64,000 nt of DNA from assembly GCA_003599455.1 (NCBI GenBank), contig QZKF01000010.1:1-64000 (forward strand), in the 5' to 3' direction. Positions 14,546 to 33,974 of the stretch are shown in pieces; position 1 is the stretch's first letter; each line of letters opens with the position of its first letter. The stretch is from Comamonadaceae bacterium. Its GTDB lineage: Bacteria; Pseudomonadota; Gammaproteobacteria; Burkholderiales; Burkholderiaceae_C. The notes beneath the pieces are model-generated. The model made no database searches. It saw nothing but the letters and a program-made list of their open reading frames with translations, and was not told where the DNA came from. The translations under genes were made by a program, and so were the position numbers.

Positions 14546-15331
14546 TCATCGACGCTTCGGAGGCCTCGAGAAGTTCGCGGGGCGCTTGTCGAGCCGGGCC
14601 CGCATGCCTTCGTGCTTGTCCGGGCTGGCAAAGGCGTTCTGGAACGCGCTGCGCTCGAACTCCAGTCCGGCCGACAGCGGGGTCTCCATCGCCATCAGCA
14701 CCGACTCCTTGATCAGGCGCAGCGCCACGGCCGGCAGTTCGCACAGCTGTTGTGCCAGCGCCAGTGCCCTGGGCTCGGCGGCATCGTCGTCCAGCACCTC
14801 GGCCACCAGGCCACACTGCAGCGCGGTGTCTGCGTCGATCGGCTCGCCGAGCAGCAGCATCTTCATCGCGCCGAACTTGCCCAGCGCGCGCGTGAGCCGT
14901 TGCGTGGCACCACCGCCGGGCATGATGCCGACCTTGATTTCAGGTTGGCCAAAACGCGCACCGCGTCCAGCCAGGATCAGGTCGGCGTGCAGCGCCAGCT
15001 CGCAGCCGCCGCCCAGCGCGTGACCGCGCACGGCCGCGATCACCGGTTTCTTGCAGGCGGCGATGGCGCCCCAGAGCAGGTCGTGCCGGCGCTCCAGCAG
15101 GTCGATGGGCGTGGCGTCCACGTACTCGTTCAGGTCGGCGCCCGCACAGAAAGCGCGTGGTCCGCCGGCCAGCAACACCACGCGCACCGACGGGTCGGCG
15201 TCCAGGCGCCGGAAGGCCTCGGCCAACGCGCGGCGCAAGTCCAGGTTGAGCGCGTTGAACACCTCGGGGCGGTTCAGGCGCAGCAGTGCCACCCCATCGA
15301 GCGGCCGTTCTTCCAGCAGGATGTCGCTCAT
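14546..15331 (-). CDS. Enoyl-CoA hydratase/isomerase (crotonase) with both catalytic glutamates
   Basis: 261 residues, standard crotonase length. The oxyanion-hole segments AFCAGADLNEY and RGHALGGGCELALHADL are present. The two catalytic glutamates of hydratases are seen in GGCELA and QPEIKVG, so syn-hydration of an enoyl-CoA is likely. It resembles PaaF-type enzymes. It is the last intact gene of the minus-strand operon, and its ATG overlaps the stop of the preceding crotonase by 4 bp, indicating translational coupling. The substrate is an acyl- or aryl-enoyl-CoA made by the operon's AMP-ligase (inference). Confidence 0.88.
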   Translation of the reverse strand: MSDILLEERPLDGVALLRLNRPEVFNALNLDLRRALAEAFRRLDADPSVRVVLLAGGPRAFCAGADLNEYVDATPIDLLERRHDLLWGAIAACKKPVIAAVRGHALGGGCELALHADLILAGRGARFGQPEIKVGIMPGGGATQRLTRALGKFGAMKMLLLGEPIDADTALQCGLVAEVLDDDAAEPRALALAQQLCELPAVALRLIKESVLMAMETPLSAGLEFERSAFQNAFASPDKHEGMRARLDKRPANFSRPPKRR

Positions 15332-16134
15332 GCGGCGTCTCCCGTGAACTTTGGCGCCCGCTTCTCGAAGAACGCGGCCACGGCTTCAGCGTGGTCGGCG
15401 GTGTGGTGGGCCAGGCCCTGCAGGTGGCCGGCGGCGTTCAGCGCTTCGTCCAGCGTGCCGGTGCGGGCCTGCTGCAACAGCTGGCGCGTCCAGCGCAGCA
15501 CCTGCGGCGGGTTGGCCGCGATGCGCCCGGCCAGGCGGAACGCTTCGTCGAGCAAGGTGTCGGGTGCGACCACGCGCGAGACCAGCCCGATACGCAGCGC
15601 TTCTTCGGCGTCGATGGTGTCACCGGTGAGCGCCATCTCGGCCGCGCGCGCGTGGCCGATCACACGCGGCAACAGCCAGCAGCCCCCGTCGCCGGGGACG
15701 ATGCCGACCTTCACGAAGCTCTCGGCGAAGCGTGCGGTGCTGGACGCGATGCGCAGGTCGCACATGCAGGCCAGGTCGTTGCCGGCGCCGATGGCCGGCC
15801 CGTTGACGGCCGCGATGATGGGCACCTGCAGCCTCTCGAAGGCGCGCGGAATGCGCTGGATGCCGTCGCGGTAGCGCTGGGCAATTTCGTCGGGCGAGCC
15901 AGCGAACATGCCCGTGCGGTCGCGCATCTCGGCCACGTTGCCACCGGAGCAGAAGGCGGTGCCCGCGCCGGTGAGCACGGCCACGCGCACGCCCATGTCG
16001 GCGTTCAGTGCGGCAAAAGTCTGTTCAAACGCCGCGAACATGGCCTCGCCGCTCAGGGCGTTGCGTGTGTCGGGCCGGTTGAGGGTGAGCAGCGCGATGT
16101 GGCCGCGTCTCACGACAAGGATGGGTTCGCTCAT
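15328..16134 (-). CDS. Crotonase-family protein with altered catalytic residues
   Basis: 268 residues. The fold is clear: [14 protein letters not shown] and [20 protein letters not shown] form the oxyanion hole. The first glutamate position has asparagine-aspartate (AGNDLA) and the second motif reads [15 protein letters not shown] instead of PEIKVG, so the hydratase pair is missing. An acidic residue at PGDGG could serve, as in isomerases or PaaG-like enzymes with WLLPR nearby (here [10 protein letters not shown]). An enoyl-CoA isomerase, hydrolase or ring-modifying role is more likely than simple hydration. It overlaps its neighbours by 4 bp on both sides. Confidence 0.82.
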
Positions 16135-17345
16135 GCGCCGTCTCCCACCCGTTCGATCGCCATGGCCACAGCCTGGCCCACACCCACGCACATGGTCACC
16201 AGGCCGTAGCGCCCGCCGGTGCGCTGCAACTGGCGCGCAGCGGTGAGAACCAGGCGCGCGCCGCTCATGCCCAGCGGGTGGCCGAAGGCGATGGCGCCAC
16301 CGTGGGTGTTCACATGCGGCGCGTTGTCGGGCAGGCCGAGCGCGCGCATGACCGCCAAGCCCTGCGCGGCGAAGGCCTCGTTGAGTTCGATCACGTCGAA
16401 GTCGGCTATGCGCAGGCCGGTCTGCGCCAGCAGCTTGTGCACGGCGGGCACGGGGCCGAAGCCCATCACGCGCGGCGCGATGCCGGCGCTGGCGTAGCCG
16501 ACGAGGCGGGCGATGGGTTGAAGACCGTGGTGCTGCGCTGCCGCTTCGGTGGCCATGAGCAAGGCGGCTGCACCATCGTTCACGCCCGACGAATTGCCGG
16601 CGGTGACGGTGCCGTTCTTGCGGAAAGCGGGCTTGAGCGCGGCCAGGCTCTCGGCCGTGGTGTCGCCGCGCGGGTGTTCGTCCACGCTCACCACCGTGAC
16701 CGCGCCTTTGCGGCCGGGCACGGACACCGGCACGATTTCCTGTGCCAACACGCCCGAGCGCATGGCCGCTGCGGCGCGCTGCTGGCTGCGCAGCGCGAAG
16801 GCGTCCTGGTCGGTGCGCGAGATGCCGTGTTCTTCGGCCACGTTCTCGGCCGTATCGCCCATGGCGTCCACGCCGTGCAGTTGTTCCATGCGCGGGTTGA
16901 CGAAGCGCCAGCCGATGGTGGAGTCGTGGATTTCGGCGTGGCGCGAGAACGCCGCCGTGGGTTTGGGCATCACCAGCGGCGCGCGGCTCATGCTTTCCAC
17001 GCCGCCCGCGATGGCCAGCTGCATCTGCCCCGTGGCCAGGCCGCGCGCAGCACCTGCCACAGCCTCCAGGCCCGAGCCACACAGGCGGTTGACGGTGACC
17101 GCTGCGGCGCTGACCGGCAGGCCGGCCAGCAGCGCGCTCATGCGCGCCACGTTGCGGTTGTCTTCACCGGCCTGGTTGACGCAGCCGTAGACCACCTCGT
17201 CGAGCTGGTCCCAGTCCAGCCCCGGGTGGCGGGCCATCAGGGCCTGCATGGGCAGGGCACCCAGGTCGTCGGTGCGGATGCCGGAGAGCGCGCCGCCGTA
17301 GCGGCCGATGGGCGTTCGCACGCCGTCACAGATGAAGGCGTTCAT
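16131..17345 (-). CDS. Acetyl-CoA C-acyltransferase, 3-oxoadipyl-CoA thiolase-like
   Basis: 404 residues, a degradative thiolase of the PcaF/PaaJ type. The acylated cysteine is C89 in [11 protein letters not shown]. Also present are [19 protein letters not shown], the histidine loop [16 protein letters not shown] and the second cysteine in MCVGVGQ. It cleaves a 3-oxoacyl-CoA to acetyl-CoA and a shortened acyl-CoA. The start at 17345 begins with [18 protein letters not shown], the family N-terminus. Stop and start overlap with the next crotonase. With crotonases and an SDR dehydrogenase it completes a beta-oxidation-like set. Confidence 0.9.
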
Positions 17346-17347
17346 GG

Positions 17348-18190
17348 TCACAGGCCCAGCACCCTTTCGGCGTTGCCGTGCATGATCTTTTCCATGACAT
17401 CGGGCTTGTAGCCGAGCTCGTCCCACTCGCGCAGGATGCGATCGTAGGGCAGGCTGGGGTAGTCGCTGCCGAACATGATCTTGTCCTGCAGGCGGCCACG
17501 GATGTCGACCTTCAGGTTGCCCGGGAAGTGTTTGGGCGCCCAGCCCGACATCTCCCAGTACACATTGCCCTTGTGCAGCGCCACGGCGGTGGTCTCGTCC
17601 ACCCAGGGCCAGCCGGGGTGGGCCATGATGATCTTGAGGTTCGGGAAATCGGCCGCGAGCTGGTCGATGTGCTCGGGGTGGGCGTGGCGCACGAGCGCGC
17701 CGTTGCCGCCCGGCATGCCGGCGCCCATGCCGGTGGTGCCCACGTCCACCATCACCGCCGCGCCCATGGCATTGATCTCTTCGAACAGCGGGTAGTAGCG
17801 CCGGTCGCTCACGGCGAAGTGCTGCATGATGGGATGGAAGTGAAAGCCGATGAAGCCCAGCTCTTTGATGGCTTTGCGGGCCTGGATCATCGCGATCTCA
17901 CCCTTGGCAGGCTCCACCGCGCCCCAGCACTGGATGACGCGCTGCGGGTGGCGCTTCCACATGCCATGCACGTACTCGTTGGTGCAGGGTGGTGCGGCCA
18001 CCGTGGTCTCCAGGTCCAGGGCCACAAGACAGGCTTCAACGCCGGCGCCGGTGAATTCGGCGATCACGTCGTCTTCGCTCTTGCCCACCCAGTCGCGTTT
18101 CCAGTAGCGGGCGAGTTCGGCCGGGTAGGGGCCCTGGGACTCGATCCAGGTCGGTGTGCCGGGGTAGCAGTGCAGGTCGATGATGCGCAT
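17348..18190 (-). CDS. Amidohydrolase (ACMSD-like metal-dependent hydrolase)
   Basis: 280 residues, amidohydrolase-2 fold. The N-terminus [13 protein letters not shown] has HxY in place of the usual HxH metal motif. Later metal ligands are seen in [21 protein letters not shown] and the final aspartate of [13 protein letters not shown]. This family includes ACMSD decarboxylases and CouO, the hydrolase that cuts the beta-ketoacyl-CoA of hydroxycinnamate side chains. Placement between an aryl/acyl-CoA ligase and a thiolase, with an SDR in the same operon, favours a C-C bond hydrolase acting on a beta-keto-CoA intermediate (inference). A decarboxylase role is the alternative. Confidence 0.8.
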
Positions 18191-18210
18191 GGCGGGTTCT
18201 CTTCTCGTGT

Positions 18211-19875
18211 TCAGTGGGGGATGCGGCGCGCCGCTTCTTCTTCCGCGTGCTTGCGGGCAATCAGTTCGCCGAGGGCCTTCTTGGACACCTTGCCGAAGGT
18301 GGACACCGGGAAGTCCGGCAACACCTCCAGCCGTTCGGGCAGCTTGAACTTGGCGATTTCCTTGGTGAGCAGGAAGCCCACGAGTTCCTTCAGGTGCAGC
18401 GTGTGCCCGGCCTTGAGGATCACGAAGGCGCACATCCGTTCGCCCAGGGCGGCGTCGGGCATGGGCACACAGGCGACGTTCTGCACCGCGGGGTGCATGA
18501 GGATCAGGTTCTCCACCTCCTCGGCGCTGATCTTTTCGCCGCCCCGGTTGATCAGGTCCTTCTTGCGGCCTTCGACGATGTAGTTGCCGCTGGCGTGCTT
18601 GCGCATCAGGTCGCCGGAGCGGTAGAAGCCGTCGGGCGTGAACTGGCGCGCGTTGTACTCGGGCACGCCGAAATAGCCGCGCAAGGTGTACGGGCCGCGC
18701 ACGGTGAATTCGCCCACCTCGCCGTCGGGTACGACACGGCCGTCGTCGTCGAGCAGCAGCACCTCGTCGTCGTCGCACACGGGGCGGCCGCAGGTTTCGA
18801 GCTTCACTTCTTCCGGGTCGCCGGCGCGCACGAACATCAGCGTGCCTTCGGACATGCCGAAGTTCTCCTGCACGAACACGCCGGGAATCAGCGCGCGCGT
18901 TCGGGCGCGCACCTCGGGCTGCATGCGTTGACCGCCGCTCTGGATCAGCTTGAGGCTGGAGAGGTCGTGGTCCTCGACGTTGGGGTCGTTGATCAGGCGG
19001 ATCAGCAGGGCCGGCACCACCTTCAGGTGCGTCACTTTGTGCTTTTCGATCAAGGCGAACATGTCGGCCGGCCGCGTGTTGGCGTGCAGCACGACCTTGG
19101 CGCCCTTGAACATGAAGCCCTGGATGCCGGGGCAGGCCAGCGGCAGGTTGTGCGCGATCGGCAGCACCAGCAGCAGCACCGACTCGGCGTCGATCTCGGT
19201 GACCTCGGCGGCCGCCTTCGAGTTGTAGGCGTAGTCGTTGTTGGTGCGTGGGATCAGCTTGGGGATGCCGGTGGTGCCGCCCGAGAGCTGGAAGATGCAC
19301 GGATCGGTCGGGTCGATGCGGATCTCGGCCAGGCGCGAGGACGGCAGCGTGGCGGGTTTGTCGATCAGCTCGCGCAGCGACACCTCGCCCGGGCCGGCGA
19401 CGCCGAGCACGATGCGGAACTTCAGCGACGGGTTCTCGGCCTGCACGCGGGTGATCACCGGCGCGAAGGCGAAGTCGCCCGTGGTGTCCGGGTAGACGCA
19501 GGTGGTCGCGCCCGAGAGGTTCACGAACTGGCTGATCTCGGCGTAGCGGTGCGTGACCAGCGCCGCAATCGGGATGCAACCGATCTTCTGCAGCGCGAAG
19601 TACAGCACCACGAACTCGTGCACGTTGGGCAGCGTGGGCACTACGCGGTCCAGCGGCTGCAGCCCGAGTTCGAGCAGGTTCAGCGCCAGGTTGCTGCTGA
19701 CGCGGTCGAGTTCGGCGTAGGTGTACGTCACCTCGCCGTCGATCAGCGCCACGCTGTCGGCGTAGCGCTTGAACACGGCGTCGAACTCCTGCGCCAGCGA
19801 CTGGTCGCGCCAGTAGCCCTTGGCACGGTAGCGCGCGGCGTACTCGGGGGGGAAGGGAACGAATCCTTCAAGCAT
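18211..19875 (-). CDS. AMP-forming acyl/aryl-CoA ligase (DhbE-like)
   Basis: 554 residues, ANL superfamily. The N-terminus FVPFPPEYAARYRAKGYW is typical of the 2,3-dihydroxybenzoate/salicylate-AMP ligase branch. The P-loop-like motif FQLSGGTTGIPK (A3) is at about residue 195. QENFGMSEGTLM (A5), FYRSGDLMRK (A7), GRKKDLINRGGEKIS (A8 hinge) and STFGKVSKKALG with the catalytic lysine (A10) are all present. It should activate an aromatic or related carboxylic acid; whether the acceptor is CoA is inferred from the thiolase and crotonases downstream. A clear AGGAGA site precedes ATG 19875. Confidence 0.88.
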   Translation of the reverse strand: MLEGFVPFPPEYAARYRAKGYWRDQSLAQEFDAVFKRYADSVALIDGEVTYTYAELDRVSSNLALNLLELGLQPLDRVVPTLPNVHEFVVLYFALQKIGCIPIAALVTHRYAEISQFVNLSGATTCVYPDTTGDFAFAPVITRVQAENPSLKFRIVLGVAGPGEVSLRELIDKPATLPSSRLAEIRIDPTDPCIFQLSGGTTGIPKLIPRTNNDYAYNSKAAAEVTEIDAESVLLLVLPIAHNLPLACPGIQGFMFKGAKVVLHANTRPADMFALIEKHKVTHLKVVPALLIRLINDPNVEDHDLSSLKLIQSGGQRMQPEVRARTRALIPGVFVQENFGMSEGTLMFVRAGDPEEVKLETCGRPVCDDDEVLLLDDDGRVVPDGEVGEFTVRGPYTLRGYFGVPEYNARQFTPDGFYRSGDLMRKHASGNYIVEGRKKDLINRGGEKISAEEVENLILMHPAVQNVACVPMPDAALGERMCAFVILKAGHTLHLKELVGFLLTKEIAKFKLPERLEVLPDFPVSTFGKVSKKALGELIARKHAEEEAARRIPH

Positions 19876-19940
19876 CGAAGTCTCCTGAAAACATCTGAGA
19901 AAAAACGCGGCCGGCGACGGGGTCAAGAGGCACCTCGGAA

Positions 19941-20003
19941 CCGGCTTTGCCGGGCCGCCAGTGCCGCCCCCTTGAGGGGGTCGCGCGCAGCGCGGCGGGG
20001 GTG
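19941..20003. repeat. GC-rich hairpin repeat typical of Comamonadaceae spacers
   Basis: The spacer between the SDR and ligase genes holds CCCCCTTGAGGGGG (19967-19980), a 5-bp stem hairpin (6 bp with T-A), followed by a GCGCGCAGCGCGGCGGGGG-like tract. I know this combination as a common intergenic element in this family. It may act as mRNA hairpin or attenuator inside the operon. Copy number could not be checked here; no second full copy was noticed in the window. Confidence 0.5.
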
Positions 20004-20777
20004 TTACGTTGAACTCGTGAAGCCGCCGTCGATGACGACGACTTCGCCTGTGACGAAGCGCATGCCCTGGATCAGGTTGAGCATCACCTCGGCCACGTCG
20101 TCGGCGGTGACGCAGCGCTTGAGCGGCGTGGCCTTGGCGCGGGCACCCATGAGGGCGTCGTACTTGTCGCCCAGCATGCGTTCCATCCAGTCGCCTTCCA
20201 TCCAGCCCGGCGCCACGGCGTTCACGCGGATGTCCGGGCCGAGGTTCCAGGCCAGCATCTTGGTCAGGCTCACTACGGCGGCCTTGCTGGCGGCGTACGG
20301 TGGGGGTTGCGGGCCGGGGCGCAGGCCCACGATGCTCGCGGTGTTGACGATGCAGGGCTCGCCCCCCTGTTCCTTGCCCTTGCGCAGCAGCGGCACGGAC
20401 GCGCGGCTCACCTGGAAGTTGCCGCGCACGTTGACCGCGAAGGTGCGGTCCCATGCGTCCATGTCCAGGCTCTCCAGGTCCTTCACCTTCCAGGTGGCGG
20501 TGGTGCCGGCGTTGTTGACCAGGGTGTCCAGGTGGCCGAAGGCGTCAGCCACCTTCGCGAGCATCTGGCGCACCGCGGCATCGTCGCTCACGTCGCACTG
20601 CAGCAGCAGGGTCTGTGCGCCCAGGGCCTGGGCTTCTGCGGCCACGGCCTGCGCGGCCTGGGCGCTGGAGGCGTAGTTGATGGCCACGTCGTAGCCGGCT
20701 TTGGCCAGGGCCAGCACGGCGCTGCGGCCGATGCCGGTGCCGCCGCCGGTCACGAGGGCTTTCTTGCGTTGGGTCAT
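20004..20777 (-). CDS. SDR-family oxidoreductase
   Basis: 257 residues, classical short-chain dehydrogenase/reductase. The cofactor motif TGGGTGIGRSA is at residues 10-20. NNAG is at about 90, the catalytic serine in NTASIVG, and the Y-x3-K pair in PYAASKAAV. NADP(H) or NAD(H) cannot be decided safely. The C-terminal PGWMEGDW and VTGEVVVIDGGF are standard. In this operon it would oxidise a 3-hydroxyacyl-CoA formed by the crotonase to the 3-oxo form for the amidohydrolase or thiolase (inference). It is followed by the ligase gene after a 128-bp spacer. Confidence 0.88.
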   Translation of the reverse strand: MTQRKKALVTGGGTGIGRSAVLALAKAGYDVAINYASSAQAAQAVAAEAQALGAQTLLLQCDVSDDAAVRQMLAKVADAFGHLDTLVNNAGTTATWKVKDLESLDMDAWDRTFAVNVRGNFQVSRASVPLLRKGKEQGGEPCIVNTASIVGLRPGPQPPPYAASKAAVVSLTKMLAWNLGPDIRVNAVAPGWMEGDWMERMLGDKYDALMGARAKATPLKRCVTADDVAEVMLNLIQGMRFVTGEVVVIDGGFTSST

Positions 20778-20814
20778 GAAGGTTCTCCGTTCTGGGGGAT
20801 GGGAAACAAGGGGC

Positions 20815-21789
20815 TTACTGGGGCTGGATGCCGAGGTCGGTGACCAGGCGCTTCATGGCGCGCTGCTGCTCGCTGAAGAAGCTGCGCGCCGCGCCCACGC
20901 TGTCCTGGCGCGGGTACACGCCCATGTCGACCAGGCGCGCCGTGACCTCGGGTGATGCGGTGATGCGGTTCACGTCGGCGTTGATGCGTTCGACGATGGC
21001 GGCCGGCGTGCCGGCGGGCACCACGATTTGGAACCAGCCGATCGCTTCGTAGCCCGGGTAGGTTTCGGCCACGGCCGGCACGTCGATGCCCGGCAGCCGC
21101 GCGGACGAGGTCACGCCCACCGCGCGCAGGCGGCCCGACTTCACATGCGGCAACAGGCTGGGCACACCGTCCACCGTCAGCATGGCGTCGCCCGCGAGCA
21201 CGGCGGCCACGGCCTCGGGTGGCGTGCGGTAGGGCACGGTGAACAGGCCCATGCCACCGGCCTTGCTCGCCATCTCGCCGGCCAGGTGCGGCAGCGAATT
21301 GAGCTGCGGCGCGGCGAAATTCACCTTGCCCGGATGGGCCTTGGCGTGTTTCTCCAAGTCAGCGACCGACTGGATGCCGCTGCTCGCGGGCACGACCAGC
21401 ATCAGCGGGCTGATGCCCACCGTCGCCACCGAGCTGAGGTCGGTGTCGGGGTTGAACTGCGGTGTCTTGAACACCAGCGGCGTGATGGTGCCCATGGCCG
21501 CCGGCACGAAGCCGATGGTGTAGCCATCGGGCACCGAGCGCGCCAGCGCGGACATGCCGGGAATGCCACCCGCGCCGGGGCGGTTGTCCACCACCACGCC
21601 CTGGCCCCAGGCGGCGGCGAGCTTCTCGCCCACGATGCGGGCGATCACGTCGGGTGCGGAGCCGGCACCGATGGGCACGATCATGCGCACGGGTTTGCTC
21701 GGCCAGCTCTGTGCCGTGGCGGTGGTTGCGGCCATGGCCAGCAGCGAAAGTGCCACGTGCATGACGCAGCGCTTGGAAATGCGGTTCAT
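20815..21789 (-). CDS. Bug/TctC-family periplasmic solute receptor
   Basis: 324 residues. The signal peptide is residues 1-27 (ALSLLAMAATTATAQ). The mature chain begins SWPSKPVRMIVPIGAGSAPD and continues with the family segment VVDNRPGAGGIPG. It lies first in the minus-strand operon, divergent from the LysR regulator, and probably binds the carboxylic acid activated by the operon's AMP-ligase. No TctAB transport genes are present, as is common for this family in Burkholderiales. The 37-bp gap to the SDR gene supports co-transcription. Confidence 0.87.
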   Translation of the reverse strand: MNRISKRCVMHVALSLLAMAATTATAQSWPSKPVRMIVPIGAGSAPDVIARIVGEKLAAAWGQGVVVDNRPGAGGIPGMSALARSVPDGYTIGFVPAAMGTITPLVFKTPQFNPDTDLSSVATVGISPLMLVVPASSGIQSVADLEKHAKAHPGKVNFAAPQLNSLPHLAGEMASKAGGMGLFTVPYRTPPEAVAAVLAGDAMLTVDGVPSLLPHVKSGRLRAVGVTSSARLPGIDVPAVAETYPGYEAIGWFQIVVPAGTPAAIVERINADVNRITASPEVTARLVDMGVYPRQDSVGAARSFFSEQQRAMKRLVTDLGIQPQ

Positions 21790-21930
21790 GTCTTGTCTCC
21801 GTATCGTTGGTCTGATGCTTCCCCCGCGTTAGGGGGTGGAGCGGACTCTAGGCAAACACGGAGAATCAAATAAGATGGCACGATTCAAAAAGCGATTCGA
21901 TAATCACATCCCCTGAACCGAACCCTTCCC
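21790..21930. promoter_or_regulatory. Divergent promoter region, LysR / catabolic operon
   Basis: The 141-bp gap between the divergent Bug and LysR genes contains the AT-richer stretch 21859-21909, with GATTCAAAAAGCGATTC and AATCACATC. That is the normal place for LysR binding. No exact T-N11-A box was proven by eye. Confidence 0.4.
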
Positions 21931-22833
21931 ATGAAGCTCGACCAGTTGCAGCACCTGATGGCCATCGTCGAACACGGCAGCCTGCGCTCGGCCGCCAAGC
22001 GGCTGGACATGCCGCAACCCGCGCTGACGCGCAGCGTGCGGGCGCTGGAGCGGGAGTTGGGTGTGAGCCTGTTTGCGCGGCAGACCACGGGCATGGTGCT
22101 GACCGCCGAGGGTGTGCGGTTCCACCGCCGCGCGTGTGTGATTTCCAGCGAGGCGCGCCGGGCGCGCGAGGAGGTGCAGCACCCAGGGCCCGGCTACGAG
22201 GGCACAGTGTCGGTGGCGCTGTCCATCATGCCGCACCTGGGCATGCTGCCCGACGCGCTGCCGGTGTTTCGAAGCGCCTACCCCAGGGTCAAACTCAACA
22301 TCACCGAAAGCCTGATGCCGGCAGTGGAAGCGGCGCTGCGCGACGGCAGCCTGGACTTCTACCTCGGCGCCGCGCCATCGCAGAAACCCGCGCCGGGTCT
22401 GGCGGTGCAGCACCTGTGTGACAACACGCGCGTGGTGGTCTGCCGCAAGGGCCATCCGCTGGCGCGCGTGCGCAGTCTGAAGGCACTGGCGGGTGCCGAT
22501 TGGGCCAGCACCACCATCGACCACAACGCAGAGGAAGACCTGGCGCGCCTGTTCGCCTCGCACGGCCAGGCAGCGCCGCGTGTGATGCTGAGCGCGCATT
22601 CAGCCCTGTCGGTGCAGGTCACGCTGCTGCGGACCGACATGCTGGCCATGCTGCCCCGGCAGTGGATGGACTTTCCCATGACGCGCGATCTGCTCGACGT
22701 GATTCCCGTGCGCGAGCGGCTGCCGGCGCCGGCCATCGTGATGGTGCGCCGGCCCGACCTGCCATTGTCACCGCCCGCCGAGTTCTTCTGCGACGTGCTG
22801 CTGCGCGGCCTGCCGCTTGTTGGCACAAAGTGA
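21931..22833 (+). CDS. LysR-family transcriptional regulator
   Basis: 300 residues. The N-terminal winged helix-turn-helix (residues 1-60) reads MKLDQLQHLMAIVEHGSLRS, then AAKRLDMPQPALTRSVRALE, a textbook LysR signature. The effector-binding domain covers about 90-295 (SVALSIMPHLGMLPDALPVF). It is divergent from the Bug-SDR-ligase operon, so it is the probable activator of that operon, with an acid or CoA ester as inducer (inference). The broken MarR gene at the far end of the operon may leave LysR as the only functional local regulator. Confidence 0.92.
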   Translation: MKLDQLQHLMAIVEHGSLRSAAKRLDMPQPALTRSVRALERELGVSLFARQTTGMVLTAEGVRFHRRACVISSEARRAREEVQHPGPGYEGTVSVALSIMPHLGMLPDALPVFRSAYPRVKLNITESLMPAVEAALRDGSLDFYLGAAPSQKPAPGLAVQHLCDNTRVVVCRKGHPLARVRSLKALAGADWASTTIDHNAEEDLARLFASHGQAAPRVMLSAHSALSVQVTLLRTDMLAMLPRQWMDFPMTRDLLDVIPVRERLPAPAIVMVRRPDLPLSPPAEFFCDVLLRGLPLVGTK

Positions 22834-23313: not shown

Positions 23314-23359
23314 CCTCCGAAGCCAAGGGTCGTGGGTTCGATCCCCGCCAGCCGCACCA
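23314..23359 (+). pseudogene. 3' fragment of tRNA-Arg(CCG), probable attachment site
   Basis: The 46 bases correspond to tRNA positions 31-76. The anticodon loop CTCCGAA (23315-23321, anticodon CCG) is followed by the 3' anticodon stem GCCAA, variable GGGTC, T arm GTGGG/TTCGATC/CCCGC, acceptor CAGCCGC, discriminator A and encoded CCA (23357-23359). The 5' half, including the matching anticodon stem strand TTGGC, is absent: 23310-23314 read GTGCC. This is what an integrase crossover in the anticodon loop leaves at the distal end of an island. The intact tRNA should lie outside the window. Confidence 0.75.
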
Positions 23360-23368
23360 ACAACGTCC

Positions 23369-23391
23369 AAGCCCTTGAACTTCAAGGGCTT
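23369..23391 (+). terminator. Hairpin after the tRNA fragment
   Basis: AAGCCCTTGAA (23369-23379) and TTCAAGGGCTT (23381-23391) are perfect complementary arms around one central base. It lies 10 bp past the CCA end and resembles the native terminator of a tRNA gene. That suggests the sequence to the right is original chromosome. Confidence 0.6.
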
Positions 23392-23500
23392 CGTCGTTTC
23401 TGGGGTACCTGATGCCTCGCCTTGCTGCAAACCAGCGACCGGGGACGGGGTGTCCAGCGTGGCAGCGCGTGTGCGGTGCGCCTCGCGCAGCAGAAAGATA

Positions 23501-23541
23501 TTGCACAAAATGTGTTTTATGCACAAAATACACATTGTGCA
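23501..23541 (+). promoter_or_regulatory. GntR-type operator and promoter
   Basis: There are three TGCACAA half-sites: 23502-23508 and 23520-23526 on the plus strand, and 23535-23541 (TTGTGCA) on the minus. The last two form a perfect 7-bp dyad with an 8-bp spacer. A promoter fits the same bases (TTGCAC at 23501, 17 bp, CAAAAT at 23524-23529), so a bound dimer would block transcription. Autoregulation by the adjacent GntR protein is inferred. Confidence 0.5.
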
Positions 23542-24247
23542 AAATACAGAACATCCTGAATCCACCTCGCCCGCGGGGCAGACCCTGTCCGAGCAGGCCT
23601 TTCTGCGCCTGCGGCGTGATGTCATTGGCGGGTCGCATGCGCCCGGCGTCAAGCTCAAGCTCGACGAGCTGCAGGCGGCCTACGGGTACTCCAGCAGTCC
23701 CCTTCGTGAAGCCCTGAACCGGCTGAGCCAGGAGGGCCTGGTCAAGGCCGACGATCGGCGCGGATTCCGGGTGGCGCCAATTTCGTCCGAGGACCTGGCC
23801 GACCTGACGCACATGCGGCTGATGGTGGAGGTGCCCGCGCTGCGCCTGGCCATCGAGCACGGTGACGACGCCTGGGAAGCTGCCGTGGTGGCGGCGGCGC
23901 ACCGCCTGGAGCGGGCGGAGGCGCATCTCGGCGAGGGCCCGCAGGTGCTGGATGAGGCCTGGAGCCAGGTGCACCGCGACTTTCACATGAGCCTGCTCGC
24001 GGCTTGTCCGTCGCAGCGGCAGCTGGTCCTGAGTGCCAGCCTGTTCGACCAGGCCGAGCGCTACCGCCGCTTTTCCGCGCGCCACCGCGTGAGTTCGCGC
24101 AGCAAGAACCGCGAGCACAAGCGCCTGCTGGAAGCGGTGCTCAAGCGCGACGCCGACACCGCGTGCGCCTTGCTGGCCGAGCACACGCAAGGCACGCAAC
24201 GCAACGTGGAAGCGGCCTTGCTGCGCATGCGTTCCGCGACCAACTGA
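23519..24247 (+). CDS. GntR-family regulator, FadR/FCD subfamily
   Basis: From ATG 23519 this is a 242-residue protein. A GntR winged helix (about residues 20-85: LSEQAFLRLRRDVIGG, YGYSSSPLREALNRLSQEGL) is followed by an all-helical FCD ligand domain. MRLMVEVPALRLAIEHG and the metal-type histidines in QVHRDFHMSLL and SKNREHKRLLEAVL belong to the latter. The start is uncertain: ATG 23519 lies inside the operator, GTG 23537 just after it, and the open frame reaches back to 23375. It heads the cluster of VOC, FAH, MDR, Bug and AA_synth genes and is probably their repressor. Confidence 0.85.
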   Translation: MHKIHIVQNTEHPESTSPAGQTLSEQAFLRLRRDVIGGSHAPGVKLKLDELQAAYGYSSSPLREALNRLSQEGLVKADDRRGFRVAPISSEDLADLTHMRLMVEVPALRLAIEHGDDAWEAAVVAAAHRLERAEAHLGEGPQVLDEAWSQVHRDFHMSLLAACPSQRQLVLSASLFDQAERYRRFSARHRVSSRSKNREHKRLLEAVLKRDADTACALLAEHTQGTQRNVEAALLRMRSATN

Positions 24248-24283
24248 CATCCCCGTTCCCGCCACCTTCGAGAAGGGCTGCCC

Positions 24284-24832
24284 ATGCTTTCCGTGACCCG
24301 ACCCACGCCTTCGCATTTCGGCATCTACGCCACCGACCCCGACTTGCTGGTGGCGTTCTACACCCGGGTTTTCGGCCTGACGCAGACCGACCGGGGCCAG
24401 GGCAAGACCTTCCCCGTGGACCTGATCTTCCTCAGCGCCAGTCCGGATCAGCACCACCAGCTCGTGATTGCCGGCGGGCGCCCGAAGGAGGCGACCTTCA
24501 GCACGGTCATGCAGATCTCCTTCGTGGTGCCCAGCATCCAGTCGATGCGCGAGATACGTCAGAGCGCGCTGGCCGCTGGCGCCACGAAGATGCGCGGGCT
24601 CAACCACGGCAACGCGCTGTCGATCTATTTCTCGGACCCCGAGGGCAACACGGTGGAGGTCTACATCGACACGCCGTACTACGTCGCCCAGCCCCACGGC
24701 GATCCGCTGGACCTCGACAAGAGCGACGAAGAACTCATGCGCGAGACCGAGGCCATCTGCCGCGCCGACCCGACCTTCATGCCCATCGACGAGTGGCAGG
24801 CCCGCTTTGCGCGGTCGGCACCCATCGCCTGA
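24284..24832 (+). CDS. VOC-family (glyoxalase/extradiol dioxygenase-like) protein
   Basis: 182 residues with one VOC module (about 8-130) and a C-terminal extension. Candidate metal ligands are the histidine in SHFGIYATDP, one in QHHQLVIAGG and the glutamate in GNTVEVYIDTPYY, a His-His-Glu set usual for Fe(II) extradiol enzymes or glyoxalases. The extension (HGDPLDLDKSDEELMRETEA) also occurs in biphenyl-type dioxygenase relatives. It is directly followed by an FAH gene, a dioxygenase-hydrolase pairing also seen at 10347-12187. Ring cleavage of a catechol is plausible; substrate unknown. Confidence 0.78.
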   Translation: MLSVTRPTPSHFGIYATDPDLLVAFYTRVFGLTQTDRGQGKTFPVDLIFLSASPDQHHQLVIAGGRPKEATFSTVMQISFVVPSIQSMREIRQSALAAGATKMRGLNHGNALSIYFSDPEGNTVEVYIDTPYYVAQPHGDPLDLDKSDEELMRETEAICRADPTFMPIDEWQARFARSAPIA

Positions 24833-24874
24833 TTCCACACCCCATCGAACACCTTCCCCATTTCAGGAGACCCC

Positions 24875-25738
24875 ATGCGACTGCTTTCATACCTTCACAA
24901 CGGACAGGAGAGTTACGGGGCCGCCGTGGGCGAGAACGTCGTGAACCTCAGCCGGGCCTTCCCGCAGTACCCCACGCTCGCCGAGTACCTGGGCGCAGGC
25001 CGCTGGACGCAGGCCGCGCAGGACGCGGCGGGAAAACCGGTGGACGGCGCCCTGGCCTCGATCACCTACCTGCCGGTCATTCCGCGCCCCGAGAAGATCG
25101 TCTGCGCGGTGCGCAACTACATGGACCACCACAAGGAAGTGCTGGCCGCCGGCATGCAGCGCGAACTGTCCGAAGAGCCGCCCATCTTCCTGCGCGTGTG
25201 GCGCTCGCAGGTGGCCCACGGGCAAGCCATCGTGTGCCCCCGCGTCTCGGCGTCGCTGGACTGGGAGGGCGAACTGGCTGTCATCATCGGCAAGAGCGGG
25301 CGCGACATTCCCGAGGCCCGGGCCTTCGAGCATGTGGCGGGCTACGCCTGCTACAACGACGGCAGCGTGCGCGAGTGGCAGTTCCACGCCAAGCAGATCG
25401 CCTCGGGCAAGAACTTCGAATCCACCGGCGGCTTCGGTCCGTGGATGGTCACTGCCGACGAGATCGAGCCCAATGCCGAACTCAAGCTGGAGGTCAGGCT
25501 CAACGGCACGGTGGTCCAGTCCAGCCACACCGGCCACATGATCTTCCCCATCGCGAAGCTCATCAGCTACGCCTCCACCATCTTTACCCTGGTGCCCGGC
25601 GATGTGATCGCCACCGGCACGCCGGCCGGCGTGGGCTGGAGCCGCAAACCGCAGTGGTTCATGAAGCCCGGTGACGTCTGCGAGGTCGAGATCGAGCGCG
25701 TCGGGACGCTGGTCAACCCCATCGTGGCGCAGGCCTGA
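24875..25738 (+). CDS. Fumarylacetoacetate hydrolase (FAH) family protein
   Basis: 287 residues. The N-terminal cap is MRLLSYLHNGQESYGAAVGE. The FAH domain contains KIVCAVRNYMDHHKEV, DWEGELAVIIGKSGRDI (acidic metal ligands), GYACYNDGSVREWQ and DVIATGTPAGVGW. Expected chemistry is metal-dependent hydrolysis, decarboxylation or isomerisation of a ring-fission product. It is close to 2-keto-4-pentenoate hydratase/5-oxopent-3-ene-tricarboxylate decarboxylase type annotations. It follows the VOC gene by 42 bp, and a quinone-oxidoreductase-like gene follows 15 bp later. Confidence 0.88.
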   Translation: MRLLSYLHNGQESYGAAVGENVVNLSRAFPQYPTLAEYLGAGRWTQAAQDAAGKPVDGALASITYLPVIPRPEKIVCAVRNYMDHHKEVLAAGMQRELSEEPPIFLRVWRSQVAHGQAIVCPRVSASLDWEGELAVIIGKSGRDIPEARAFEHVAGYACYNDGSVREWQFHAKQIASGKNFESTGGFGPWMVTADEIEPNAELKLEVRLNGTVVQSSHTGHMIFPIAKLISYASTIFTLVPGDVIATGTPAGVGWSRKPQWFMKPGDVCEVEIERVGTLVNPIVAQA

Positions 25739-25753
25739 GCAGGACACGGCCCC

Positions 25754-26749
25754 GTGCAGGCTATCCAGGTTCAGACGCCAGGCGGTCCCGATGCGCTGCA
25801 GCTGGTGGCGCTGCCGGAGCCGCAGGCCGGTGCGGGCACGGTGCGGGTGCGCGCGCAGGCGATCGGGGTGGGGCGTCCCGACGCCTTGACTCGCAACGGC
25901 ACCTACAAATGGATGCCGCCGTTGCCCGCCATCCCCGGCGCCGAACTGGCCGGGGTGGTGGATCAGGTGGGCCCCGGCGTGACGCAGTGGGCCGTGGGCG
26001 ACCGCGTGCTGGTCAGCGCGCGGGATCTGCCGCAGCGCGGTGGTTGTTACGTGCAGGCCATCGTCGTGCCCGAGGCCGCACCCTACCGGCTGCCCGATGC
26101 CATTGCTTTCACCGACGCCGTCAGCCTGCCCAACCTGCAGCTGGCGCAGGCGCTGCTGCTGGGGCTCAACGGTGGCCGTGCCGACGCCCGCAGCGTGCTC
26201 ATCACGGGCGCATCCGGCGGCGTTGCCACCATGCTCGCGCAGCTGGCGCGCCATCACCGGATGCTGACGGTGGGCACGGCGCGCTCCGCCGACAAGCGCG
26301 CCTACGCCCTCGCGCAGGGTTTTGACGCCGTGCTGGATCCCGCGGAGCCGGATCTGCCGCGGCGCGTGAAGGCGCTCACCGATGGCGCGGGCGTCGATCT
26401 GGCGCTGGACCCGATCGGAGGACAGACCTTCATCGACTGCCTGCACAGCCTGGCGCCGCTGGGCACGGCCGTCTCCTACAACATCGTCTCCGGCCCGCCC
26501 GCACAGGACGTGTTCGCCACCCTGCGCAGCCTGCTCGGGCGCAGCCTGGCGGTGCGCTGCTTCTCCATGCACACCTTCGACGAAGACACGCAGCGCCGGC
26601 GCGCGCTGATGCAGGGCGCCATCGACCTGATGGCGGCAGGCCATGTGAAGGCGCCCGCACCCACCTTGCTGGCGCTGACCGAAGCACGCCAGGCCCATGT
26701 CCTGCTGGACGCTGGAACATTCACCGGAAAGATCGTGCTGCAACCCTGA
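25754..26749 (+). CDS. Zinc-independent MDR/quinone oxidoreductase-like protein
   Basis: 331 residues, medium-chain dehydrogenase/reductase of the QOR branch. The GroES-like domain (1-125) contains AIPGAELAGVVDQVGPGV but no structural-zinc cysteine cluster. The Rossmann domain has VLITGASGGVATMLAQLARH. The GTG start is at 25754, 15 bp after the FAH stop, with an AGGACACGG-like site upstream. NADPH-dependent reduction of an enone or quinone is the family reaction. Its place in the GntR cluster suggests action on the ring-cleavage product side chain (inference). Confidence 0.83.
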   Translation: MQAIQVQTPGGPDALQLVALPEPQAGAGTVRVRAQAIGVGRPDALTRNGTYKWMPPLPAIPGAELAGVVDQVGPGVTQWAVGDRVLVSARDLPQRGGCYVQAIVVPEAAPYRLPDAIAFTDAVSLPNLQLAQALLLGLNGGRADARSVLITGASGGVATMLAQLARHHRMLTVGTARSADKRAYALAQGFDAVLDPAEPDLPRRVKALTDGAGVDLALDPIGGQTFIDCLHSLAPLGTAVSYNIVSGPPAQDVFATLRSLLGRSLAVRCFSMHTFDEDTQRRRALMQGAIDLMAAGHVKAPAPTLLALTEARQAHVLLDAGTFTGKIVLQP

Positions 26750-26830
26750 CCTGATTTCAAACCCGCGGAACAAAGCCATGGCACGGACCGTGGCCGCCGC
26801 TTCATCGACCATCCGCAAAGGAGACATTCC

Positions 26831-27799
26831 ATGCAACGCAGACATTTGATGCAGGCCGGCGCCGCCCTGGCCGTCACCCCCTGGTTGTCGGCGCACGCCG
26901 AGACGTATCCGGATCGCCCCATCCGGATGCTCCAGGGGTTTGCCCCGGGCGGCAATGCGGACAACATCGCCCGCACCATCGGCCAGGAAATCGGCAAGGC
27001 CCTGGGCCAGCCCATCGTGGTGGAGGCGCAGAGCGGTGCGGGGGGCACGCTGGCCGCCGGCAGCGTGGCGCGTGCGAAGCCCGATGGCTACACACTGCTG
27101 CTGGCCACGGGCGGCCATGCGGTCGCGGGCGCGCTCTACAACACGCTGCCCTACCGCACCGTGCAGGACTTCGACGCTGTCTCCACCATCACCTTCTTCC
27201 CCTTCCTCGTGGTGACCACGGCCGAGTCCCGGTACAAGAGCTTCGCCGATGTGCTGGCCGCGGCCCGCGCCGCGCCAGGGTCCATCGCCTACGGCACCGC
27301 CGGCATCGGCTCCACGCACCACCTGGCGGGTGAGCTGCTGGCCAAGATGGCGGGCGTGCAGATGCTTCACGTGCCCTACCGGGGCGACTCGGCGTCGCTG
27401 ACCGCCCTGCTGTCGGGCGACGTTCCCATCATCATTGCCCCGCCCACGGCGGTGCTGTCCAACATCAAGGGGGGCAAGTTGCGGGCCCTGGCCGCCACCG
27501 GTCCACAGCGCTGGCCCGGTCTGCCTGAAGTGCCCACCGTGGCTGAGCAGGGCGTGGCGGCTTACGACGTGCGTTCGTGGGCCGGCGTGCTGGCACCCGC
27601 CGGGCTGCCGAAGCCGGTGCTGGACCGCCTCAACGCCGAGATCAACAAGGCGCTGCTGTTGCCGTCGGTGAGGGCCCGCCTGGAAGAAATGGGCGGCGAG
27701 GCCCGGGGCAGCACGCCCGACGAGATGAAGACCATGGTGGCGAATGAAACCCAGCGCTGGTCTCAGGTGGTGGCCGACGCCAAAATTCCCAAACAATGA
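26831..27799 (+). CDS. Bug/TctC-family periplasmic solute receptor
   Basis: 322 residues, the third Bug receptor in the window. A short export signal (MQRRHLMQAGAALAVTPWLSAHA) precedes ETYPDRPIRMLQGFAPGGNAD. The family segment VVEAQSGAGGTLAAG is present. An RRHLMQAG twin-arginine-like start is noticeable, but a clear Tat motif is not established. It belongs to the GntR-led cluster and likely delivers its substrate. No TctAB partners are encoded nearby. Confidence 0.87.
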   Translation: MQRRHLMQAGAALAVTPWLSAHAETYPDRPIRMLQGFAPGGNADNIARTIGQEIGKALGQPIVVEAQSGAGGTLAAGSVARAKPDGYTLLLATGGHAVAGALYNTLPYRTVQDFDAVSTITFFPFLVVTTAESRYKSFADVLAAARAAPGSIAYGTAGIGSTHHLAGELLAKMAGVQMLHVPYRGDSASLTALLSGDVPIIIAPPTAVLSNIKGGKLRALAATGPQRWPGLPEVPTVAEQGVAAYDVRSWAGVLAPAGLPKPVLDRLNAEINKALLLPSVRARLEEMGGEARGSTPDEMKTMVANETQRWSQVVADAKIPKQ

Positions 27800-27845
27800 G
27801 CGGCTTCGCACGCGTTGACGGCCTTCTCCCAACCCACTGCACACC

Positions 27846-28424
27846 ATGTCCCTGATCGAAATCCGCAAGCGCAGCCTGACCGTTGAAACCATCTACCACG
27901 AGGGGGGGCCAGCGCCGGCGGTGCCGCTGAAGCTGGCGGCGGCTTGCGCGGTCATCCGCAACCCCTACGCAGGCCGCTACGAGCCCGACCTGCTGCCGTT
28001 CATGGCCGAGCTCCGGGGCCTGGGCACGCTGCTGGCCGAAGAGCTGGTGAACACCCTCGGGCGGGACCAGGTGGAGGTTTACAGCAAGGCCGCCATCGTG
28101 GGGGTGAACGGCGAACTGGAACACGCCGCCGTCTGGCACGAGGCCGGCGGCTGGGCCATGCGCGCCGTGCTGGGCGAGCCCAAGGCCATCGTTCCCGCAT
28201 CGAAGGCCGTGGCCGCCACCGGTTACCGCTTGATGGTGCCGCTGCACTACATCCATGCCGCCTACGTGCGCAGCCACTACAACAGCATGGAAATCGGGAT
28301 CCAGGATGCGCCGCGCCCCGACGAAATCCTGTTTGCCCTCGTGATGGGAACCGGAGGGCGCATCCACTCGCGCCTGGGTGGTCTGACCAAGGAGAAGGTG
28401 TCGGTGCACGATGGTCAGCGCTGA
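27846..28424 (+). CDS. Amino acid synthesis (AA_synth, DUF1185) family protein
   Basis: 192 residues, matching the AA_synth (PF06684/DUF1185) family over its whole length. Typical parts are AACAVIRNPYAGRYEPDL, SKAAIVGVNGELEHAAVWH, GWAMRAVLGEPKAIVPASK and LHYIHAAYVRSHYNSMEI. Function in this family is poorly established. In Burkholderiales these genes often lie beside Bug receptors and oxidoreductases of small catabolic clusters, as here. It is the last gene before the glycine riboswitch. Confidence 0.75.
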   Translation: MSLIEIRKRSLTVETIYHEGGPAPAVPLKLAAACAVIRNPYAGRYEPDLLPFMAELRGLGTLLAEELVNTLGRDQVEVYSKAAIVGVNGELEHAAVWHEAGGWAMRAVLGEPKAIVPASKAVAATGYRLMVPLHYIHAAYVRSHYNSMEIGIQDAPRPDEILFALVMGTGGRIHSRLGGLTKEKVSVHDGQR

Positions 28425-28449
28425 ACTCGCCCGGTAGAATCACATCCGT

Positions 28450-30207: not shown

Positions 30208-31761
30208 ATGAGTACTTTTTCGTCTTTTGGAATTGCCAGGCGTCTTTACGCCGCCGTCGGTCTGGTTTCACTGGCCCTGGCCGGGGTGGCGATCTTTGCC
30301 TATCTCGAGTTGCAGGTGGTGGTGAGGGACGCCGACTACATCGCGGAGCGCCGCGTTCCGCAGATGCAGCGGATCGCCGACGTCGAGCTCGACATCACCC
30401 GCACCTCGCTGCAGCTGCGGCATGCCATGTTGTCGCGCACGCCCGAAGAGCGTGCGGCCACCCTGGCCGACATCGCAGAGAAGCGCAAGCAGATCGGCCT
30501 GAGGATGGCCGAATACGAAAAGGCCGTTGACTCCGCTGATGGACGTGCCCGCCTGGCGGCCATGGTGCCGCTGATGGAGAAGTTCTGGCAGGTGGCGGAC
30601 GCCAACGTCGACTTCATCCAGAAAGGGCAGATGGCGGAAGCATTCGCCTTCCTGGTCGACAAGACCATCCCCGTCCGCAACGAGCTGCTCGGCAAGCTCA
30701 ACGACGGGGTGAATTTTTATGAATCGGCCCTCCATGCCGACGTCGCCGAGATCAAGCGCGAGTCACAGGCCACCCTGAAATGGCTGGTCGGACTGTCCAT
30801 TGCGGTGGTGATCACGCTGGTGCTCAGCACGGGGTACGTGGCGCTGGTGCTGCGCAGGCGGGTCGCCGAGTCGCTCGCGGTGGCCGAGCGGGTGCGGGAC
30901 GGTGACTTCACGCGGCCCGTGGTGGATGCGTCACGCGACGAGTTCACCCCGTTGATGGCGGCGCTGGCTGCGATGCAGTCCGCGCTGAGCAACATCGTGA
31001 CCGTGGTGCGCGGCAATGCCGACAGCGTGGCCACCGCCAGTGCGCAGATCGCCCAGGGCAATTCAGACCTCAGCCAGCGCACCGAGGAACAGGCCAGCGC
31101 CCTGGAGGAGACCGCCGCTTCCATGGAACAGCTGACCACGACCGTGAAGCAGAACGCGGACCATGCGAGCCAGGCCAATCAACTCGCGCAAGGCGCGTCC
31201 GTCGTCGCGCAGCGCGGCGGCGAGGTGGTCAGCCAGGTGGTCGAGACCATGAACGGCATCAACGCGAGTTCGCAGCGCATCGTCGACATCATCGGCACCA
31301 TCGATGGCATCGCTTTCCAGACCAACATCCTGGCGCTGAACGCGGCGGTGGAAGCGGCACGGGCCGGCGAGCAGGGCCGCGGATTCGCGGTGGTGGCGGG
31401 CGAGGTGCGCAACCTCGCGCAGCGCAGCGCCGAAGCGGCCAAGGAGATCAAGGGGCTCATCACCGCCAGCGTCGCCCAGGTGGAAGAGGGTTCCGCGCTG
31501 GTGGACCGGGCGGGCACGACGATGCAGGAGGTGGTCAACGCCATCCGGTCTGTCTCGGATCTCGTGGGCGAGATCAGCTCGGCCAGCGTCGAGCAGAGTT
31601 CCGGGGTCTCGCAGATGGGCGAGGCGGTGAGCCAGATGGACCAGGCCACGCAGCAAAACGCGGCGCTGGTCGAGGAAAGTGCGGCCGCGGCGTCGAGCCT
31701 GAAGCACCAGGCCGAGCAACTGGTACACGCGGTGGCCGTGTTCAGGCTGCCCAGCCACTAG
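30208..31761 (+). CDS. Methyl-accepting chemotaxis protein
   Basis: 517 residues. The first transmembrane helix is at about 12-34 ([20 protein letters not shown]). A periplasmic four-helix-bundle sensor covers about 35-190, and the second helix is at about 190-213 ([20 protein letters not shown]). A HAMP domain and a long signalling domain with the highly conserved hairpin tip ([35 protein letters not shown]) follow. It relays ligand binding to CheA/CheW. The C-terminus FRLPSH lacks the NWETF tether for CheR/CheB. No ligand can be named. ATG 30208 follows CCGGAG. Its stop overlaps that of the convergent LytTR gene. Confidence 0.93.
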
Positions 31762-32756: not shown

Positions 32757-33974
32757 ATGAACCGCCGACACGACGTCGATGCCCTGCGCGCCCTGGCCTT
32801 TGGCCTTGTGATCCTGTACCACGTGGCGATGCCGTATGTGGAAGGCTGGCACTGGCACCTCAAGAGCGAGCACCTCGCCGCCTGGCTGCAGTGGCCCATG
32901 CGCGCGCTCAACCTGTGGCGCATGGACCTGGTGTTCCTGGTTTCCGGCCTGGCCATGGGCTTCCTGCTGCGCGAGCCGGACCGCCTCGCCGTGCTGCGCC
33001 AGCGCAGCCTGCGCCTGCTGCTGCCGCTGGTCTTCGGCATGGCGGTGGTGGTGCCCTACCAGGCCTATGCCCAGGGTGTGGCCCAGGGCCTGATCGAACC
33101 CGGCTTCGGCGCCTTTCTGCTCCGGTACTACAGCGGTGGCCCCTGGCACGCGGGCGCCTTCGACGGCTGGGACTTCGGCGTCACCTGGAACCACCTCTGG
33201 TACCTGCCCTACCTCTGGGTCTACACGGCCCTGCTGCTCGCGCTGCACCCGCTCCTGGCGCGCGGGCGCCGCCGCTTCGTGGCCCTGCGTGGCGCGCGCC
33301 TGCTGGTGCAGCCCGTGCTGCCGCTGGCGCTGTACTCGCTCACCCTGTGGCCGCACTTCCCGCCCTCGCACGACCTGGTGCACGACGCCTGGCTGCACGC
33401 GGTCTACTTCACGCTGTTCGTCTACGGCTGGTGGCTCGGCGTCGATCCGCCCCTGTGGGCCGAGATCGTGCGCCTGCGCCGCCGCGCGCTGGTGCTGGCG
33501 GTGCTCGCGTTCGGGCTCTACGCCGTGTGCCGCACCGGGGTGGGCGGCTTCGCCCCCTCGGTACCCACGGCGCGGCTGGTGGCCGACGTCTACCGCTGGG
33601 CGGTGATCCTGGCCGTGCTGGGCCACGCCGGCCACCACCTGAACCGCCCCTGGCACTGGCTGGCCTGGGCGCGCGAGTCGGTCTACCCCTGGTACCTGCT
33701 GCACCAGACGCTCATCGTCGCCGCGCTGGTGTGGCTGCTGCCGCTGCGCCTGGGGCCCGTGCTGGAGCCCGTGGCGGTGCTGGGCTTCACCGTGGCCGGC
33801 TGCTGGCTGCTCACCGACGGTGCCGTGCGGCGGCTGCGCTGGCTGCGCCCCCTGTTCGGGCTGGGGCCGGCGCCCCGCGCAGCGAGAGCCACGCAAACAC
33901 CCCGCCCACCGCGGCCCCGGCCAGCACGTCCAGGAACACGTGCTGGCGCACCGCCACCGTCGACCAGACGATGA
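32757..33974 (+). CDS. Acyltransferase-3/OpgC-like integral membrane protein
   Basis: 405 residues with about ten membrane helices. The N-terminus DVDALRALAFGLVILYHVAM is the acyltransferase family 3 signature (R-x-(I/L)DxLR; histidine in the first helix). Further clues are VFLVSGLAMGFLLREP and ARESVYPWYLLHQTLIV. The family transfers acyl groups to sugars or glucans at the inner membrane; relatives include OpgC. The last about 35 residues are proline/arginine-rich and overlap the convergent PAP2 gene by 164 bp, so the natural end may be earlier than the present stop. Confidence 0.82.
   Translation: MNRRHDVDALRALAFGLVILYHVAMPYVEGWHWHLKSEHLAAWLQWPMRALNLWRMDLVFLVSGLAMGFLLREPDRLAVLRQRSLRLLLPLVFGMAVVVPYQAYAQGVAQGLIEPGFGAFLLRYYSGGPWHAGAFDGWDFGVTWNHLWYLPYLWVYTALLLALHPLLARGRRRFVALRGARLLVQPVLPLALYSLTLWPHFPPSHDLVHDAWLHAVYFTLFVYGWWLGVDPPLWAEIVRLRRRALVLAVLAFGLYAVCRTGVGGFAPSVPTARLVADVYRWAVILAVLGHAGHHLNRPWHWLAWARESVYPWYLLHQTLIVAALVWLLPLRLGPVLEPVAVLGFTVAGCWLLTDGAVRRLRWLRPLFGLGPAPRAARATQTPRPPRPRPARPGTRAGAPPPSTRR

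Follow-up and report, generated by a model that had tools for sequence, protein, structure and literature searches.

Results

The right end of the island

The window is the whole stretch of DNA analysed here, 64,000 nucleotides corresponding to bases 1-64000 of contig C21 in a draft genome (G000) of 4.29 Mb and 106 contigs. It contains the 3' half of a tRNA-Arg(CCG) gene, 46 nt that run from CCTCCGAAG to CACCA, or from tRNA position 31 to the CCA end (Table 1), and ARAGORN finds no complete tRNA gene anywhere in the 64 kb. The half matches a complete tRNA-Arg(CCG) on contig C39 of the same genome over 47 bp (98% identity, E 1.3e-16) and is for that reason not a chance match; this match and a direct reading of the sequence confirm the fragment as an earlier note, made from the letters of the window, had described it. 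The hairpin that follows has a predicted energy of -19.6 kcal/mol, which none of 200 shuffles equals in stability, a main stem pairing 23369-23378 with 23382-23391, and only a short run of T behind it. Since the tRNA 3' half and the hairpin are conserved together in three relatives (G010, G011 and G014, at 90-97% identity), we regard the hairpin as native, as the same note had supposed from its appearance.

Table 1. Features of the window (coordinates in the window) and of the right ends in related genomes (coordinates in the loci named).
Feature	Position	Strand	Basis or remark
Right-hand part of the island, taken as cargo up to the contig edge	1..23313		Island side of the displaced half; pieces compared: 14576-22815 and 18211-22833
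Cargo block with enoyl-CoA hydratase, AMP-binding, TctC receptor and LysR genes among others	14576..22815		Pfam
Displaced 3' half of the host tRNA-Arg(CCG)	23314..23359	+	Pairs with the TTGGC 5' half on C39; the join gives one complete tRNA
Recombination core CCTCCGAAG	23314..23322	+	Anticodon loop and one stem base on each side
Native hairpin 3' of the tRNA gene, terminator-like	23369..23391	+	Fold, and conservation in G010, G011 and G014
Variable host-side block, first gene a GntR/FCD regulator	23492..28434	+	88% identical in G001 and G010
First stretch matching near the tRNA in G001, G011 and G014	31006..31749		76-79% identity
Conserved host flank, collinear with genomes that have an unbroken tRNA	33877..47401		G012 and G011
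HipA kinase gene just inside the right border	L070:822-2168; L068:10054-11412; L195:10382-11740; right end of G022		
Giant ORFs, 1651-1748 aa	L070:2303-7549 (G014); L068:11778-16775; L195:5061-10016; L196:666-5633 (G052)		

The two sides of the fragment differ in their relation to the unbroken gene. The cargo block is collinear with contig C77 of G011 at 86-92% identity, and the unbroken tRNA of G011 is on contig C95; the conserved host flank lies on the same contig and in the same orientation as the unbroken tRNA in both G012 (81-83% identity as far as 47401) and G011 (83% as far as 41785, where the contig ends). Because the block is found elsewhere in G011 and the right flank is collinear with the unbroken tRNA, the sequence to the left of the fragment is assigned to the island and that to the right to the host. 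The proposal of the earlier note that the regions left of the fragment may be island cargo is thereby upheld; its reading of the region to the right as host sequence holds from about 31.0-33.9 kb, where collinear order begins, but not plainly for the variable host-side block, whose counterpart in G001 is ~0.7 Mb away from the tRNA. In G010 the counterpart of this block and the tRNA part lie at the ends of two different contigs, and the 31006-31749 match in G014 has the opposite orientation relative to the tRNA. As judged from these alignments, the interval of 23.4-31 kb on the host side of the fragment is variable. Further to the right, window positions 36700-41300 are matched in 41 of 67 genomes, the window's own included. 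On the island side, positions 18211-22833 recur nearly full length in at least seven of the 66 other genomes of the genus (G011, G043, G049, G059, G073, G074 and G081); any match at all is found in 51 of 67, mostly to a short dispersed repeat. An intergenic repeat of ~80 bp stands at 19921-20007; most genomes of the genus contain it many times in nearly identical form.

The left end on contig C39

The complete tRNA-Arg(CCG) on contig C39 occupies positions 4800-4875 of the minus strand. Just upstream of it a second tRNA-Arg(CCG) is represented by its first 40 nt, which have CCTCCGAAG at their end, and the complete gene (hereafter the spare) starts 94 nt after the start of this orphan 5' half. 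The copies can be told apart by their anticodon stems: TTGGC in the orphan 5' half pairs with GCCAA in the window, and the stem of the spare is TCGGC/GCCGA. When the C39 flank is joined to the window at the core, ARAGORN recognises one complete tRNA-Arg(CCG). With the join as query some match was obtained in 39 of 40 genomes (own included), many of them to tRNA sequence only; in nine relatives (G001, G005, G007, G010, G011, G012, G013, G018 and G023) the match runs uninterrupted from the flank through the tRNA, and in G010 and G011 it extends unbroken through the hairpin.

The stems, the complete join and the nine unbroken relatives together lead us to conclude that the insertion broke a host gene within the anticodon loop and that the separate tRNA was supplied by the island. 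The fragment thus marks an island end, as had been claimed, with its matching 5' half on C39 and with unbroken sites in relatives; comparison with genomes whose site is empty, which the earlier note had suggested, gave a tRNA that is unbroken and contiguous in all nine. The stretch common to both island ends is the 9-bp core CCTCCGAAG only, and therefore the tRNA gene has been replaced rather than restored at the junction. An intact tRNA-Arg(CCG) had been predicted for the other end of the island; one is indeed present, on C39, but as a separate, island-borne copy and not as the regenerated host gene.

Recurrence of the left end

A pattern consisting of the first half, 45-75 nt and the next copy was matched in 22 of the 67 genomes of the genus and in 53 stretches of the genome_contigs database. 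The matching records name Hydrogenophaga, Rhodoferax, Polaromonas, Acidovorax, Tepidimonas, Tibeticola, Ramlibacter, Curvibacter and Hylemonella, all of which we take to be Comamonadaceae, and several records carry no genus. Pattern matches pooled with other loci and de-duplicated by sequence gave 56 distinct left ends, four of them stacked, and in every one of the 56 ARAGORN finds exactly one tRNA-Arg(ccg). From the start of one copy to the start of the next the distance is 94 nt in 46 left ends, all four stacked ones among them, 95 nt in seven and 93 nt in three. At 25 of the 52 unstacked loci the stem sequence of the first half differs from that of the spare, which therefore cannot be just a recent duplicate of the host gene. 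Searches with the left end gave 52 partial matches in plasmids and 49 in phages, none covering more than 80% of the query and those listed covering the tRNA, and its pattern had no match in viral contigs.

Displaced halves in the carriers

In the 22 carriers the displaced half was sought by exact matching, in 16 of them also by relaxed matching with up to three mismatches, and by reading of the sites. Nine carriers are informative (G000, G003, G014, G015, G022, G040, G055, G064 and G071), and in every one of them the displaced half agrees with the first half, the spare being of the other type. Four others (G041, G044, G052 and G077) are concordant but uninformative, G069 is ambiguous, with its second copy at a contig end, and no displaced half with three or fewer mismatches was found in the remaining eight (G017, G045, G050, G053, G057, G060, G067 and G074). 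Two displaced halves would be expected in the stacked carriers G041, G050 and G057; G041 has one, and G050 and G057 have none.

Six carriers (G000, G003, G014, G015, G022 and G040) have CCTCCGAAG as their core; in the seven others with a displaced half it is shorter, CTCCGAAG or TCCGAAG, and these shortened cores fit a crossover within the 7-nt anticodon loop. At many right ends (L053, L195, L185, L215, L216, L219, L227, L230 and L234) a hairpin stands just before the core, in some cases with a run of T, as if stopping transcription at the border. Contig C38 of G014 (L071:1) opens precisely at the core, and the end of contig C9 (L070:119) is repeated in it; this assembly branch at the crossover might stem from a sample that contained both the integrated and the excised form.

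Recombination genes

The earlier note had suggested looking for an integrase to the left of the window; Pfam reports no PF00589 match on C39 or C21, and nine other contigs of the genome carry PF00589 matches that are unplaced. The genome of G022 has ten such matches, two inside the island and neither near an end, and five ORFs tested beside its spare yielded no integrase, only DUF3616 and a diacylglycerol-kinase domain.

Just inside the displaced half, G014, G015 and G040 have a HipA gene (identified by Pfam in G014 and G015 and by sequence likeness in G040) and then a giant ORF of 1748, 1665 and 1651 aa, respectively; G022 has HipA at its right end without the giant. HipAB is described, in the part of PMC8978831 available to us, as stabilising a composite island in Shewanella. 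The C-terminal half of the giant is assigned to PHROG integrases in two proteins (E 9.2e-9 and 6.7e-7), of which one also has a Pfam match (E 0.00066) and the other none, and the N-terminal half matches no family. In four aligned giants, two of them 91-94% identical, the residues R, K, RH or HxxR, GH and Y are kept in each half. We read these as the catalytic set, with which both halves of the four sequences are compatible, and on account of them the giant would consist of two fused tyrosine recombinase domains.

Four of the 67 genomes of the genus have relatives of the giant (G014, G015, G040 and G052), and each of them is one of the 22 carriers. The displaced half of G052 is not on the contig of its giant, and a repeat-rich ORF of 2354 aa adjoins the giant gene (L196:6983-14047). 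Distant, partial relatives were found in four of 299 genomes of a family sample. Around these, within 14-20 kb, a T-arm-plus-CCA search and ARAGORN detect neither a tRNA nor a tRNA 3' end, and hence the giant family is not tied to the tRNA-Arg(CCG) site. Among viral contigs, 91 peptide-pattern matches to the giant were obtained and none was confirmed. In the place of the giant, G003 has one gene of 736 aa and another of 952 aa, which may be a split form of it. A match to an integrase family was obtained for the second only; the first is weakly similar to the giant profile (hhalign probability 21%, E 0.001), and neither the second nor the accessory gene is significantly so. The right ends thus present one two-domain protein in G014, G015 and G040 and two genes in G003, with one further gene each where seen.

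The window's genome contains no relative of the giant, and a search of the window and of C39:1-19000 for remnants of the giant, the G003 genes or HipA gave two matches (E 0.013) that we take as chance. Because neither the giant nor a remnant of it is found there, this island has probably lost its mobility, or else its recombinase is on an unplaced contig.

Discussion

Proposed mechanism and alternatives

The split of the gene, the core, the spare, its spacing, the unbroken sites, the recurrence and the stacking can all be read directly in the sequences. From them we hypothesize, with high confidence, that the island split the host tRNA-Arg(CCG) and carries at its left end a whole spare that is most likely read from the host promoter. 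A large island would enter the host gene by site-specific recombination in the anticodon loop, presumably catalysed by a tyrosine recombinase, and so split it: the 5' half with its promoter would be kept at the left end (C39), and the 3' half, together with the hairpin behind it, moved to the right end (the window). The left attachment region of the island would bring in the whole tRNA-Arg(CCG), starting 94 nt past the start of the orphan 5' half. The spare has no evident promoter of its own, and most likely it would be transcribed from the host tRNA promoter through the 5' half and the spacer, to be released from the read-through transcript by RNase P. A more elaborate proposal, which we give even chances, is that in islands of Hydrogenophaga and related genera a giant two-domain tyrosine recombinase cuts tRNA-Arg(CCG), that a promoterless spare in attP lands 94 nt behind the captured promoter and becomes the sole source of this tRNA barring exact excision, and that later islands stack 5' halves by entering the spare.

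The spacer bears on how the spare is transcribed. It starts with NTRTVGTCR in 55 of the 56 left ends, and in 47 of 56 it contains TATTGGTCT with at most one mismatch, the two forming by eye an inverted pair in many left ends; beyond the spare, CCWATRGTC occurs in 21 of the 50 left ends that are long enough (0.65 in letter shuffles), and in 19 of these 21 its offset is 98-109 on one strand or, on the opposite strand, 188-209. Since this motif recurs beyond the spare, the spare seems to be built into attP, although an exact copy of CCWATRGTC is absent from the left end of the window's own genome. Such a site layout could by itself fix the spacing, and the same split, spacing and spare would then be compatible with a spare driven either by a promoter of its own within the spacer or by one belonging to the island. 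We consider this unlikely: -10-like hexamers (at most one mismatch) stand just before the first half at 30 of the 52 unstacked loci, against 1.8 in letter shuffles, and just before the spare at only one of 52, rarer than the 5.3 of shuffles. The spacer contains no promoter-like -35/-10 pair beyond what shuffles give; with up to four mismatches, such pairs were counted before the first half in 17 of 56 and in the spacer in 10 of 56, where spacer shuffles predict 14.4, and neither count beats shuffles. The first of these counts speaks against the proposed mechanism, as do the eight carriers in which no displaced half was found, the shortfall in the stacked carriers and the absence of a recombinase match at either end in the window's genome.

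The ends on C39 and C21 lie on unlinked contigs of a draft genome, and they might belong to two different insertions, such as stacked islands; stacked left ends do occur in relatives, and the right end of G003 has recombinase genes unlike those of G014 and G015. We hold this to be quite improbable, as the window's genome yielded a single orphan 5' half and a single displaced 3' half, with matching stems, and as G022 (83.6 kb), G040 (~111 kb) and G071 (~120 kb) have both ends on a single contig around one interval, possibly itself composite. We infer that the two ends bound one island. That this is a conventional anticodon-site island, its intact tRNA on C39 being the regenerated host gene and the orphan half and spacer an unrelated later duplication, is scarcely credible even though an intact tRNA at one end and a 3' fragment at the other are the classic signature (Islander, in the available part of PMC4383910), for the displaced half should then match the 5' stem of the intact tRNA and not, as in all nine informative carriers, that of the orphan half, and a step that stays within 93-95 nt in all 56 left ends ill suits scattered duplications.

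Relation to known systems

An island that replaces the tRNA gene it has split has points in common with three described systems. In Islander islands, attP carries the missing part of the tRNA and the gene is regenerated at the junction (PMC4383910, in the part available). The present islands resemble these in the crossover in the anticodon loop, the 3' fragment at the far end, the large cargo and the unbroken sites in other genomes, and the target tRNA is likewise split with a displaced fragment; unlike them, they do not restore the target from an attP fragment at the junction, the ends sharing 9 bp, the 5' half being orphaned and a whole separate tRNA being supplied. GInts, according to the available part of PMC5385486, have three integrases (ginABCD being these three and a small protein) and imperfect flanking repeats of 10-11 nt. 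They too carry a large cargo, have several tyrosine recombinases together at one end and are flanked by short repeats, but the right ends of our carriers do not have three integrase genes; they have a two-domain protein (G014, G015 and G040) or two genes (G003), with an accessory gene in addition, beside a split tRNA, and the GInt text at hand makes no reference to tRNA. The third system is the tRNA-Thr of Caldiarchaeum, where, as reported in the accessible portion of PMC3293823, a complete tRNA is preceded by a 5' fragment of its own kind and a recombinase-coding insert separates the two; that case differs in being archaeal, in its 1.8-kb insert and in the gain of introns, and no fixed spacing or family of large islands is described in that portion. 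Fragments of tRNA in archaea are also treated in PMC9897764, as far as its available text goes.

Searches for whole-tRNA replacement by islands and for tycheposons found no matching description in the literature covered, which was thin in subscription papers; fused recombinases likewise had no matching description there, and the accessible text of PMC8138268 does not mention fusion. We call islands that replace a split tRNA gene with a separate whole tRNA a new variation on tRNA-gene islands. Programs that recognise islands by a split gene presuppose a tRNA regenerated at the junction (Islander, in the excerpt of PMC4383910 at hand); because the tRNA is replaced here, they would set one border wrongly, by as much as ~95 bp, and overlook the orphan half. 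If no gene other than the spare supplies this tRNA, careless deletion of the island would be harmful and exact excision safe, which would be a simple way of keeping large catabolic islands. Stacked 5' halves are a record of repeated hits at one site.

Other tRNA-linked loci in the same genome

Two further loci of the window's genome have features of this kind. On contig C49, at 29335-29379 (L003:1501-1545), another tRNA-Arg-like 3' fragment is followed by a hairpin and a run of T, and this fragment is probably a second island end. On contig C48, at 30670-31425, a tRNA-Arg(acg) has a PF00589 integrase gene ~230 bp away, in the usual layout of a tRNA island.
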